A DNA stretch of 5,956 nucleotides from Betaproteobacteria bacterium (GTDB taxonomy: Bacteria; Pseudomonadota; Gammaproteobacteria; Burkholderiales; SG8-41). Under the pieces are notes generated by a model, which was not told the origin of the DNA, ran no database searches, and saw only the letters and a program-made list of their open reading frames with translations. Every line of letters starts with the position of its first letter. Within the stretch, counting starts at the first letter, position 1. The position numbers were made by a program, and so were the translations under genes. The stretch lies in contig JANYDM010000048.1 in NCBI GenBank assembly GCA_025363575.1, positions 1 to 5,956 on the forward strand, written 5' to 3'. Shown here one piece after another: positions 2,532-5,956 of this stretch.

Positions 2532-2702
2532 AATCGAGCAGCCCATACGCATGTCGCGGGATGGCGCACGCCGGCCGTCGTGCTGGCCTGCGGCAGCATG
2601 GTGCTAATGCTCTCAGTGGGAACACGGCAGAGTTTCGGCCTGTTCCTGCAACCGATGACGCTCGACCTCGGATGGGCGCGCGAGACATTTGGTTTCGCCA
2701 TT

Positions 2703-2718
2703 GCAGTGCAGCAGTGCA
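2703..2718. repeat. Perfect 8-bp tandem duplication (GCAGTGCA x2) causing the MFS frameshift
   Basis: Two copies of GCAGTGCA lie back to back at 2703-2710 and 2711-2718. The net +8 changes the frame by +2. With one copy removed the translation reads AIAVQNIVWG, which fits the family at the TM2 start. This identifies the repeat as the mutation itself. Confidence 0.85.
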
Positions 2719-3123
2719 AAATATCGTGTGGGGTCTTGCCCAGCCGTTTGCCGGCGTAATTGCTGATAAGTTTGGCGCCGCGCGTGTCATCGCTGGCGGC
2801 GGTATTTTCTACGCGCTTGGGCTCATGCTGATGGCGTACTCCAGCACTTCTCTCGCGTTTGATTTGAGCGCCGGCTTGCTGGTGGGTCTGGGACTAAGCG
2901 GCTCAGGCTTCGGCGTGGTGATGGGAGTTGTCGGACGCGCCACACCGGCGGCCAATCGCAGCGCAGCGCTTGGTTTCGTCGGCGCCGGCGGCTCGTTCGG
3001 CCAGTTCGCGATGCTGCCTTTGGGCCAGGCGTTAATCTCGCATTTCGGCTGGCTGAGCGCATTGATCGTGCTGGCCGCAATTTCGCTGGCGATCGTGCCG
3101 CTTGCAGCGGCGCTCGCCGGCCG

Positions 3124-3152
3124 GAATTCCAATGCTCAATCGAGCACGCAGA
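3124..3152. other. Junction joining two 3'-truncated convergent gene fragments
   Basis: Plus-strand MFS similarity stops near 3123, and minus-strand PF06684 similarity stops near 3153. Both genes lose their C-terminal halves here, and the ~30 bases between fit neither. One deletion between convergent genes, or a misassembly, explains both truncations at once. Confidence 0.6.
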
Positions 3153-3362
3153 GCCTCCCAGCAAGCGCACCAGATCAGGCATAAGGCGTTCGCCTAGCTC
3201 AGCGCCCATATCGAACATCGGACTCAAGTCCTCGACAAAACGCCCGCCATAAGGATTCTCGATCACGGCTATGCCGACCACATGATTGACTGGGCGAGTC
3301 GCTTTGCGGCCGCCTTCGGCGTACACGGTCTCGCGTGTCACCACGATTTTCTGGATTTCCAT
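3153..3362 (-). pseudogene. Amino acid synthesis family (PF06684/DUF1185) protein, N-terminal fragment
   Basis: From the ATG at 3362 the first ~70 residues read as a PF06684 N-terminus: MEIQKIVVTRETVYAEGG, then AVIENPYGGRFVEDLSP (residues 32-48) and GAELGERLMPDLVRLLGG (53-70). Family members are about 190-200 residues, so roughly two thirds are missing. After residue 70 the frame stays open to 2823, but that part is antisense to the MFS gene and is not protein of this family. A structural-genomics member from Bordetella has a chorismate-mutase-like fold, and a role in amino acid metabolism was proposed; the true activity is not settled. The start follows GAGG-type Shine-Dalgarno sequences. 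It lies 76 nt after the GcvT-GcvH stop on the same strand and was probably the last gene of that operon. I see no terminator in the gap. Confidence 0.78.
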
Positions 3363-3438: not shown

Positions 3439-4989
3439 CTACGTCACGCGCTGGTCCTGCGACCATTCGTCGTACCGCCGCAGCCGCCGCGTCAGGTCCC
3501 CGTACTCCGCAAAAGCCATCAAGTCCTCGTACTCGCGCGGGGTTTTGACATGCAGCTTCAGCATGCCTCGTTGCGCATAGGGATAGGCGTTGACAAGGCC
3601 GGGTTGCTGGATCAGCGCCTCGTTTGTTTCAATCACATCGCCCGTTACCGGCGAGATGATATCGAACGATCTTCGATAGCTGTCGATCCAGCCTGCGGGA
3701 GATCCCTTCGTGATGCTGTCTCCCACCCTAGGTAAATCCACACACAGGATATCGCCGAGGCTGCGTTGGCCAAAATCGGAGACGCCCAGCGTAATCACGT
3801 TCTCGCGTCGGTCCTCGACATGCGCCCATATGTGGGAGCTCGTGAAGCGCAGACCATAAGGTGAATGAGTGATGACCGAAGGTTCTTCCTTCGCCGTGCG
3901 CGGGTAAAACGGCGTCGCGACGACACGCCCTTGGCGTCTCTTGCCACGGACGTGGACCTCGATTTCCGTGCCGATCTCGGCGTGATCGATGCCAACGTAG
4001 CCGAGCCCGAGGTTGCGTCCGCTCAAGCTCGCCGACAGCGGTCCACTCGTCACGCGGCCGATTTCCTTTCCGTTTCTATAGATTCGGTAGCCGTTGCGAA
4101 TCGTCAGATGCCCCTCCATTTCGAGGCCCACCAGCTTCCGGCTCACGCCATTCGCTTTGATCCGCGCGAGGGCCTCGTTGCCCAGAAAGTCTTTGGAGAG
4201 CTTGACCACCCAGCCGAGTCCTGCTTCGAAGGGATTGGTCTCCGGGTCCATGTCGTTTCCGTTCAGCAGGTAACCGGCCTCCGTCCTCAGACTTTCCCGC
4301 GCCGCTACGCCGTGCGGCACGATACCGAGAGGCCGGCCCGCCATCAGCAACGCATCCCAGATCCACGGCGCCAGGTCGCGCGCGACCATGATTTCATAGC
4401 CGCGATCACCAGTGTAGCCGGTGCGGCTGATGATGCACGGCACGTCCGCGTGTTCGGTGTGGATGGTTGTCTGCACGAGCCAATAATATTGCAGGGTCGA
4501 AAGATCGGCCTGCGTGATGCGCTGAAGCGCTTCCCTCGACTCCGGTCCCTGCAGCGCGAGCAAAGCCGTATCGGTGGAGATGTTGCTCACCTTCACATTC
4601 ATTGCGCGTGAGTGTCTCAGCACCCACTGATAATCCTGGTCGGTCTTGGTCACGTTAACGACCCACCGGAAGTGATCAGCCGCCAGTCGGAAGCACACGA
4701 GATCGTCGATGACCATGCCGTTCTCGGTGCACATCACCGAATACAAGGCCTGATTGTCAGAGAGTTTGGCGGCATCGTTGGTGATTAGCTTTTGCACCAG
4801 CGCCAGTGCATCCGGACCTTCGAAATCGATCTCGCCCATGTGCGACACGTCGCACAAGCTGACGCCTTGACGCGTCGCGAGATGCTCCGCCAGATGGCCG
4901 CAATAGTGCATCGCGCGCGCGAAGTCTTTGAGGTTGATGATTGCTGATGCATCGCGCACATGGCAGTCATACAACGGTGTGTGTTTCAT
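3439..4989 (-). CDS. GcvT-like aminomethyltransferase fused to a GcvH-like domain lacking the lipoyl lysine
   Basis: The ATG at 4989 (516 residues) is preferred because AAGGGAG lies 9 nt upstream and TPLYD follows at residues 4-8, as at a GcvT N-terminus. An in-frame ATG at 5052 would add 21 residues unlike the family and has no good ribosome site. Residues 1-370 are GcvT: DVSHMGEIDFEGP (47-59), NGMVIDDLV (90-98, with the Asp pair at 95-96 where the folate-binding Asp lies), LLALQGPE (143-150), RTGYTGDRGYEI (189-200) and ARESLRTEAG (230-239). Residues 378-499 are GcvH: SSHIWAHVED, GVSDFGQRSLGDI, SPVTGDV. GcvH carries lipoyl-lysine in ESVKA; here the aligned stretch is DSYRR, with Arg439 at the lysine position. 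The FxGWxMP loop of GcvT is also altered (LKDFARAMHY). Likely role: cytoplasmic one-carbon transfer to tetrahydrofolate from an unknown methylated substrate rather than ordinary glycine cleavage. No gcvP is seen. It lies 71 nt downstream of the hydrolase. Confidence 0.85.
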   Translation of the reverse strand: MKHTPLYDCHVRDASAIINLKDFARAMHYCGHLAEHLATRQGVSLCDVSHMGEIDFEGPDALALVQKLITNDAAKLSDNQALYSVMCTENGMVIDDLVCFRLAADHFRWVVNVTKTDQDYQWVLRHSRAMNVKVSNISTDTALLALQGPESREALQRITQADLSTLQYYWLVQTTIHTEHADVPCIISRTGYTGDRGYEIMVARDLAPWIWDALLMAGRPLGIVPHGVAARESLRTEAGYLLNGNDMDPETNPFEAGLGWVVKLSKDFLGNEALARIKANGVSRKLVGLEMEGHLTIRNGYRIYRNGKEIGRVTSGPLSASLSGRNLGLGYVGIDHAEIGTEIEVHVRGKRRQGRVVATPFYPRTAKEEPSVITHSPYGLRFTSSHIWAHVEDRRENVITLGVSDFGQRSLGDILCVDLPRVGDSITKGSPAGWIDSYRRSFDIISPVTGDVIETNEALIQQPGLVNAYPYAQRGMLKLHVKTPREYEDLMAFAEYGDLTRRLRRYDEWSQDQRVT

Positions 4990-4998
4990 GAATTGCAT

Positions 4999-5005
4999 CT
5001 CCCTT
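4999..5005 (-). promoter_or_regulatory. Shine-Dalgarno site deciding the GcvT-GcvH start
   Basis: AAGGGAG on the minus strand ends 9 nt before the ATG at 4989. Another ATG at 4998 abuts the motif with no spacing and cannot use it. The site also disfavours the in-frame ATG at 5052, only 8 nt after the hydrolase stop. Confidence 0.6.
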
Positions 5006-5060: not shown

Positions 5061-5642
5061 CTATAGGCCCATCTGCGCGATCAGCGCCTTCGTCAATGGG
5101 TCGTTCGCATCGCCGAGACGGTCGGTGACGTCGAAGTGATTGTCGCCCGGCGTGGATACATATTCTGCCCTGACGCCGTGCAGCCTCAGGCGCGCCGCGT
5201 ACTCGAGCGACTGCCAGTGAAACAGATGAGGCTCGTTGCCGCCGACTGCGACGATGGAGGGGGCCTTGGCGATAAACGGCAGATACATGGGGCTCATGGC
5301 TTGCGCTTCCTCAGCCGTGAGCCGGATGTCCGGTTGTAGTTGCGAGTGGCGATGCGGCTCGATGTCAAACAACCCACTCAAGGGTGCCGTGCCCTTGATG
5401 AGATCGTTCGCCAAATCGGCCTCCTTCTGCCAGTCGGTGGCGATCATCATGCCGGTCAGGTGGCCGCCGGCGGAGTGCCCCGATACGTAGATCTTTTTCG
5501 GATCGCCGCGGTACCCGGCGATGTTCTTATGAACCCATACGATCGCCCGCCGCACCTGGTGGACGATGTCAGTGATGCGCACCTTCGGACAAAGATCGTA
5601 ATTGAGCAGCACGACCGTCGCGCCAGCGGCGAAGCCGGAATC
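5061..5642 (-). pseudogene. Kynurenine formamidase/esterase-like alpha/beta hydrolase, N-terminally truncated
   Basis: The frame is open from 5696, but family-like sequence begins near 5642 (SGFAAGATVVLLNYDLCP). Counting from the GTG at 5612 (residue 1): LNYDLCPKV is at 3-11, the nucleophile elbow GHSAGGHL at 45-52 with Ser47, VGGNE at 123-127 where Glu127 could be the acid, and GDNHFDV at 156-162 with His159. These match the arylformamidase/BD-FAE-type esterase family, which hydrolyses small amides or esters in the cytoplasm. Intact members usually have about 80-100 more N-terminal residues, including the oxyanion-hole HGG(Y/W) motif; these are absent. Upstream in frame lie unrelated residues and a TGA at 5699-5697, and no ATG. 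The GTG start would leave out the first core strand, so a functional product is unlikely. The TAG at 5061-5063 is followed after 71 nt by the GcvT-GcvH start, suggesting an operon. N-formylkynurenine as substrate is not supported by anything else here. Confidence 0.75.
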
Positions 5643-5665
5643 TATCGCCCCCGCGACCTTCCTTG
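5640..5665. other. Junction between the hydrolase fragment and an unrelated plus-strand coding fragment
   Basis: Minus-strand hydrolase similarity ends near 5640. On the plus strand, peptidase-like sequence becomes recognisable from about 5641 (IAPATFLEPMSHWFQGWN). Two genes in opposite orientation thus abut or overlap at their 5' ends, and the hydrolase lacks its start. A natural divergent pair would keep both starts and an intergenic region, so this is a rearrangement or assembly breakpoint. Confidence 0.5.
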
Positions 5666-5670
5666 AGCCG

Positions 5671-5956
5671 ATGTCGCACTGGTTCCAGGGCTGGAATCAA
5701 TGTGCCGAGGAATCCATCGCGATGTCGCTCTCGTATTTCGGCAGCAAACTCGACCCGAACACGGTGACAGCGTACCTACGGCCGAACAACGGCCCGAAGG
5801 ACGGCCCGCCGAAAACCACGACCACGATCCTCGACGTGGCGACCAAGAAGGAGACAGCGTTGACGCTGCCCGCCGGCCACATCGCCAACGGCTTTTCCCC
5901 GGACGGCAAGAAGCTCGTCACCATGCAGATGGATATCGGCACGGGCATGCCGGTCA
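5671..5956 (+). CDS. C39-peptidase-like start joined to a PD40/TolB-like repeat (partial, possibly chimeric)
   Basis: The frame is open from 5602 to the window end. ATG 5671 is the first ATG but has no Shine-Dalgarno sequence, and similarity seems to begin before it. Residues 4-39 from that ATG (HWFQGWNQCAEESIAMSLSY to TAYLRP) resemble the start of C39-type papain-like peptidase domains, whose usual motif is NxCGPxxxAMxLxYxG. Cys11 is kept, but the Gly-Pro after it is Ala-Glu here. From about residue 45 the sequence changes character: TTTTILDVATKKE, then LPAGHIANGFSPDGKKLVTM, a PD40/WD40-like propeller blade with the FSPDGKKL signature. A C39 domain normally runs about 130 residues, so the blade comes too early for an intact peptidase. 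Either the two parts were joined by a rearrangement or this is an unfamiliar architecture. The propeller style recalls Planctomycetes or Acidobacteria more than the rest of the window; that is an impression. Confidence 0.45.
   Translation, partial: MSHWFQGWNQCAEESIAMSLSYFGSKLDPNTVTAYLRPNNGPKDGPPKTTTTILDVATKKETALTLPAGHIANGFSPDGKKLVTMQMDIGTGMPV

Follow-up and report, generated by a model that had tools for sequence, protein, structure and literature searches.

The fusion gene and its domains

The stretch of DNA analysed here (the window) comprises 5,956 nucleotides of contig JANYDM010000048.1 from the assembly of a Betaproteobacteria bacterium (GCA_025363575.1). The subject of this study is a minus-strand gene of the window in which a GcvT module, i.e. 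the aminomethyltransferase (T protein) of glycine cleavage, is joined in frame to a domain with the fold of the lipoyl carrier GcvH (H protein), and in which an arginine stands in place of the lipoyl lysine. It is accompanied by incomplete genes for an alpha/beta hydrolase and an AA_synth protein, a transporter fragment and a long open reading frame (ORF) at the window end (Table 1).

The 516-residue translation of the ORF has no internal stop, and all three Pfam domains exceed their cut-offs, which confirms the proposal of an earlier note, made from the letters of the window, that a full GcvT-like module is followed in frame by a GcvH-like domain; both folds are complete. The signatures LGDI, SPVTGDV, NEAL and LVNAYPY, which were said to be kept around the altered site, are all present in the protein. 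The motif DSYRR aligns without gaps with ESVKA of solved H proteins, including the pea H protein, and therefore Arg439 occupies the position of the lysine of this motif, which we take to be the lipoyl attachment site. As the note had stated, the codon of Arg439 is CGA; it is located at 3675-3673 of the minus strand, nine bases away from the previously given position 3684-3682, which reads GAC and encodes Asp436.

Table 1. Features of the window (coordinates in nucleotides of the window, residues of the fused protein)
Feature	Position	Strand	Remarks
GcvT-GcvH(Arg) fusion gene	3439..4989	minus	516 aa + stop; 124 further fused relatives
Putative ribosome-binding site GGGAG	4999..5003	minus	9 bases before ATG at 4989; predicted from sequence
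GCV_T folate-binding domain, residues 6-261	4207..4974	minus	Pfam, 267.8 bits
GCV_T_C barrel, residues 284-362	3904..4140	minus	Pfam, 78.2 bits
Linker, residues 363-378	3856..3903	minus	Thr374 and Pro377 invariant in 120/120
GcvH-like domain, residues 380-498	3496..3852	minus	Pfam GCV_H, 91.8 bits, cut-off 22.2
D-S-Y-R-R hairpin tip, residues 436-440	3670..3684	minus	replaces E-S-V-K-A; from alignments
Alpha/beta hydrolase (Abhydrolase_3 / BD-FAE), N-terminal part missing	5061..5657	minus	upstream, ends 71 bases before fusion
AA_synth (PF06684), first 76 codons, cut by junction	3135..3362	minus	downstream, begins 76 bases after fusion
MFS transporter fragment	2556-3181		profile positions 46-175 of 347; match ends near 3128
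806-aa ORF	1-2418	minus	open at window end; Pyr_redox_2 398-623, Fer4_20 just under cut-off

Arginine 439 in the fused family

Searching 5.8 billion proteins resulted in 3028 homologues; the 120 best-scoring ones (query included) were examined. Each of them has all three Pfam domains, the 119 other proteins are 64-78% identical to the query, and all 120 aligned sequences carry Arg439, Asp436 and Tyr438. Such uniform presence of arginine is beyond chance. Five further members were obtained. The H region of the divergent member P0118, used as query, contributed one (7 matches, limited by shared words), and a search in which 15 divergent members served as queries contributed four, which were the new sequences in its best 120. 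Arg439, Asp436 and Tyr438 were found in all of the 125 fused sequences examined, which supports the earlier claim of an arginine in place of the lipoyl lysine and likewise the view that a single sequencing error is unlikely. Close homologues with lysine, named earlier as the observation that would overturn the claim, were looked for; lysine occurs at position 439 in none of the 124 other fused members, which are the best-scoring matches of these searches, and lysine-bearing fusions may exist among the 2,908 and 7,450 lower-scoring matches beyond the examined sets. Arg439 is a trait of the family and not a sign of decay. Furthermore, the alignment of 120 sequences shows only nine invariant residues among the 120 positions of the H domain, three of them forming the D-x-Y-R tip. 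Arg439 is conserved as expected for a functional residue. One member, P0113, has 121 extra arginine-rich residues at its C-terminus (517-637), perhaps by read-through past the normal end.

The H domain compared with ordinary GcvH

For comparison, we used an ordinary set of 22 gcvT plus gcvH pairs, consisting of 20 of the best-scoring ones from Myxococcota, one from an Enhygromyxa contig and one from a Roseateles plasmid; L003, a T-like match without an H match, was excluded. All 22 pairs have lysine at the lipoyl site. A position was regarded as switched when at least 80% of the ordinary set agree on one residue and at least 95% of the family have a different one. In the H domain this applies to four positions (Glu to Asp436, Val to Tyr438, Lys to Arg439 and Trp to Gly475), three of which belong to the tip.

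According to PMC7733448, Glu12, His13 and Glu14 of the E. coli H protein hold the aminomethyl-lipoyl arm, which comes into contact with Ser67, Asp68 and Tyr70 as it moves outwards. The counterpart of Glu14 (residue 387) is Glu in 22/22 ordinary proteins and in 7/125 fused ones, and that of Ser67 (residue 442) is Ser in 21/22 versus 2/125. At the counterpart of Tyr70 (residue 445), Tyr or Phe is present in 21/22 ordinary proteins, and neither is among the six commonest residues of the fused family, which together cover 123/125 members. The counterpart of Glu12 is not conserved in the ordinary set either. Moreover, the mean charge of the H domain is -4.3 in the fused proteins compared to -17.2 in the ordinary ones. 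As judged from these sequences, the family has lost the attachment site, its acidic surface and some of the arm shelter, the fold and the tip are still under constraint, and the fused H domain is unable to carry a lipoyl arm at residue 439. The earlier statement that it cannot act as the usual shuttle holds, because no lipoyl arm is possible at the arginine.

The T domain

The catalytic Asp96 as well as Asn112, Arg231, Met51 and Tyr83 are present in 125/125 fused members, and Glu195 in 123/125. Arg231 and Glu195 belong to the THF-contact residues, of which the T domain retains several but not all (see residue 100 below). By the same definition as above, 18 positions of the T domain are switched. 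They are clustered, with six of the 18 in residues 14-32 (p 1e-4) and seven in residues 228-247 (p 9e-6), two stretches that were picked post hoc. Lys21, Arg25 and His32 have been gained in the first stretch; Lys21 and Arg25 occur in 123/125 members, the remaining two rows being gaps. The strongest positive charge shift along the T domain is found at residues 19-37.

Evolution, constraint and distribution

In a tree of the T domains of 32 of the 125 fused members and the 22 ordinary pairs, the fused proteins lie on one side of a single branch with a support of 100/100. The tree is unrooted, and this branch has a length of 1.16 changes per site. A recent fusion confined to the contig of the window was thus rejected on the grounds of the 119 fused homologues and the single group on a long stem. 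Hence, of the alternative offered in the earlier note, selection or recency, the constraint on the site is retained, and recency is dismissed for a family-wide trait on a long stem. Within the family the H domain changes faster than the T domain, with a mean pairwise identity of 0.563 versus 0.743 in the family alignment, used here as a proxy for dN/dS, although its tip is invariant. Signs of decay were looked for in the 122 of 125 fused sequences with at least 505 aa, using positions conserved in 95% of the family. The window copy deviates at no such position in the H domain and at two in the T domain (family means 0.4 and 1.5), so the absence of H deviations does not bear out a damaged copy.

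Other collections were searched as well. Two scans of viral contigs revealed no relative. Among plasmid records, 888 matched, the best place of each being less than 60% identical; the 40 matches listed are 31.8-37.2% identical and, where annotated, mostly represent separate gcvT and gcvH genes. Some records of the plasmid collection are chromosome-sized (e.g. 11.85 Mb from Nonomuraea), i.e. the plasmid label is not always reliable. In 282 Myxococcota genomes, no open fusion was found among the matches listed, and those spanning T and H contain at least one internal stop. When genome contigs were scanned for exact peptides taken from one sequence, a single ordinary gcvT-gcvH pair was retrieved, which has lysine; this is no proof of absence from named genomes.

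Predicted structure

AlphaFold models of two fused members reached pTM values of 0.87 and 0.83 (first model: 115 of the best 120 proteins, without P0069, P0089, P0090, P0113 and P0120; second model: 60 of the 125). The two-domain fold is thus predicted with confidence. These values appear higher than expected for a freely floating H domain, and the models suggest that the arrangement of the domains in the fused protein is fixed.

Relation to known proteins and naming

The window protein exceeds the cut-off of the GcvT equivalog model TIGR00528 (308.2 versus 235.85 bits), which is also matched by 60/60 fused members of the second-model subset (E 1e-5). In contrast, the GcvH models are not reached (TIGR00527, 90.4 versus 115.85; PRK01202, 101.3 versus 117). 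The protein possesses the H-protein fold of GcvH; the lipoyl lysine in E-S-V-K-A is replaced by arginine in 125/125. By sequence and fold the protein is a GcvT, and its H-fold part falls outside the definition of GcvH. Since the GcvT model accepts the window protein and the GcvH models reject its H part, members of the family tend to be annotated as plain GcvT. Examples are P0038, P0088 and P0090, which bear this name at NCBI in metagenome-assembled genomes of Burkholderiales, Methylomirabilota and Steroidobacteraceae.

Compared to the aminomethyltransferase GcvT (1woo, 1yx2, 3a8i), the fused protein differs by the attached H domain that cannot be lipoylated and by the 18 switched T positions. 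It differs from the lipoyl carrier GcvH (1htp, 3ab9) by Arg in place of the lipoyl Lys, the D-x-Y-R tip, the replacement of three arm-pocket residues, the far less acidic character and the scores below the GcvH cut-offs. The GcvT fold is shared with the demethylases DmdA (3tfh), LigM (5x1i) and Tdm (9q59), which align with the T part only; the T domain of the fused protein scores closer to true GcvT. DmdA and LigM use the GcvT fold to act on small molecules without a lipoyl carrier, and to our knowledge none of the three demethylases has an H-like domain. The same carrier-free action on a small molecule is described for Tdm in PMC12560246. The models for the DMSP demethylase DmdA (PRK12486, 147.6 versus 410) and for the TMAO demethylase (NF053776, 255.5 versus 1100, with profile positions 411-755 of 763 aligned) are not reached. 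Recruitment of the H fold to other tasks is known from LbpA of sulfur oxidation (PMC6067878) and from Streptococcus GcvH-L (5a35). However, both are separate proteins and LbpA binds lipoate, whereas the fused family has no lysine at the site. In our searches of the open-licence literature of PMC, the listed titles and beginnings of abstracts describe neither a GcvT-GcvH fusion nor an Arg-type H protein.

Genomic context

The hydrolase match starts at profile position 28 of 210, and the AA_synth match covers 73 of 175 profile positions before it stops at 3135. The earlier observation of broken neighbours is thus correct, since the MFS, AA_synth and hydrolase matches are all partial. Hydrolase, fusion and AA_synth genes may form one operon, because they share the strand with gaps of only 71 and 76 bases. 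This stretch of about 2.5 kb appears to be set between unrelated sequence, with junctions at 3128-3135 and about 5657-5690; near 3128 the MFS homology stops and AA_synth begins in the opposite direction. The junctions represent either an assembly chimera or a real rearrangement. By eye, the N-terminal part of the MFS transporter continues in another frame before approximately 2712, a piece that gave no MFS match. The 806-aa ORF resembles an NAD(P)-linked iron-sulfur oxidoreductase and has a long N-terminal part without Pfam match.

Some PF06684 genes have been linked to catabolism. Among them is TgnF of Acinetobacter, which takes part in the breakdown of trigonelline (N-methylnicotinate). The PF06684 member HcdD of the 7-hydroxycoumarin cluster is likened to TgnF by its authors in PMC7913881, and the first PF06684 structures tied the proteins to amino-acid metabolism, according to PMC2954203. 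Furthermore, we read seven AA_synth plasmid loci (30 listed of 121 matching) and one hydrolase plasmid locus (15 listed of 278 matching). An alpha/beta hydrolase is present in 4/7 of the AA_synth loci, and a luciferase-like monooxygenase with a flavin reductase in 2/7; a GcvT-like gene was found in none of the seven nor in the hydrolase locus. Because HcdD, TgnF and the plasmid clusters link PF06684 genes to catabolism, the catabolism of a nitrogenous compound is a reasonable guess, but no more than that, for the genes of the window. Adjacent AA_synth pairs (L032 6411-7573; L036 6396-7555) were noticed in a Sulfitobacter cluster that also encodes 6-hydroxynicotinate reductase and in an Arthrobacter cluster that also encodes a luciferase-like monooxygenase, where they perhaps form two-subunit assemblies in the breakdown of N-heterocycles.

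Possible function of the fused protein

Arginine at the lipoyl-lysine site in 125/125 members means that the enzyme probably works without a lipoic acid arm. We tentatively favour the explanation, although it stays slightly short of being probable, that the family represents a lipoyl-independent one-carbon transferase using tetrahydrofolate (THF), in which the former H domain serves as a fixed lid or anchor and which acts on a small, perhaps anionic substrate. From the evidence above we infer the docking of the domains, the lid role, the use of THF, and the charge, class and pathway of the substrate in the following way. The T domain would bind THF and accept a methyl or a methylene/aminomethyl group as the one-carbon unit of a small substrate. 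Its fused H-like partner would have ceased to be a shuttle and would be held in a fixed place beside the T domain, probably covering the entrance of the T cavity in the manner of H in the known T-H complex; the lid idea, also raised in the earlier note, fits to the two invariant residues of the linker and to the high pTM of the two models. The invariant D-x-Y-R tip could contribute, jointly with the T-domain residues Lys21 and Arg25, to the binding of the folate tail or of an anionic substrate. Hydrolase, fusion enzyme and AA_synth may then serve the breakdown of a nitrogenous, perhaps N-methylated, compound.

Several observations weigh against this explanation. The window protein itself has Asp in place of Glu195. 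Residue 100, which we take to be the counterpart of Y101 of E. coli GcvT, is Tyr in only 52/125 members, Phe in 58 (including the window protein) and Leu or Met in 15. For Y101, a contact with THF is reported in PMC12560246. The positive shift at residues 19-37 is only a weak hint at an anionic partner, because the charge shifts negative at 110-118 and 228-247, and the value for the whole T domain is +6.6. Parts of the arm shelter persist, with E. coli His13 kept in 124/125 fused members and Asp68 as Asp or Glu in 121/125. The ordinary set is narrow, with 20 of its 22 pairs from Myxococcota, the gene context comes from a single mosaic contig, and the proposed effect of HcdD could not be demonstrated, as PMC7913881 states.

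The main rival assumes that the T domain still serves glycine cleavage via a separate lipoylated GcvH, and that the fused domain has a regulatory or docking role, in which it fills the H site, controls access to this site or attracts a P-protein. We regard it as unlikely, yet as the strongest of the competitors. The partial clustering of the changed T positions in the N-terminal stretch speaks against it; the N-terminal region of T is essential for inducing a change in H according to PMC7733448. Furthermore, the scan of the neighbouring ORFs, which are cut short, revealed neither gcvP nor gcvH.

The faster change of the H domain would agree with a purely structural role, in which it stabilises the T domain or a dimer and the arginine tip has no catalytic or binding function. 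However, D-x-Y-R is present in 125/125 members exactly at the old active tip, whereas 111 of the 120 H positions vary, which makes this a rather improbable option. We consider it very improbable that the tip docks a partner enzyme which supplies an iminium or formaldehyde equivalent. FAD domains make such a transfer internally in dimethylglycine oxidase and sarcosine oxidase; no such oxidase is present among the ORFs scanned beside the fusion, and the plasmid loci lists read lack a GcvT-like gene. A decayed allele or a sequencing or assembly error that changed Lys to Arg, as the mosaic contig and the broken neighbouring genes might have suggested, has a negligible probability and was ruled out by Arg in 125/125 fused relatives and the few deviations of the window copy (none in the H domain, two in the T domain).

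For the lipoyl-independent transferase with a lid, a wider view, which we hold with somewhat more reserve, is that of a lipoate-free glycine cleavage branch. A captured, armless carrier would have become a substrate-binding lid, its D-x-Y-R tip replacing the arm by direct contact, and a new family of THF-dependent transferases would be hidden under the name GcvT. The annotation as GcvT may credit genomes with a glycine cleavage of which a protein with a disabled carrier may be incapable. Provided that the lid model is true, the family would be a clear example of a post-translationally modified carrier domain that lost its cofactor and was then built permanently into an enzyme, and it would help to reveal any catalytic contribution of the H fold other than the transport of the arm.
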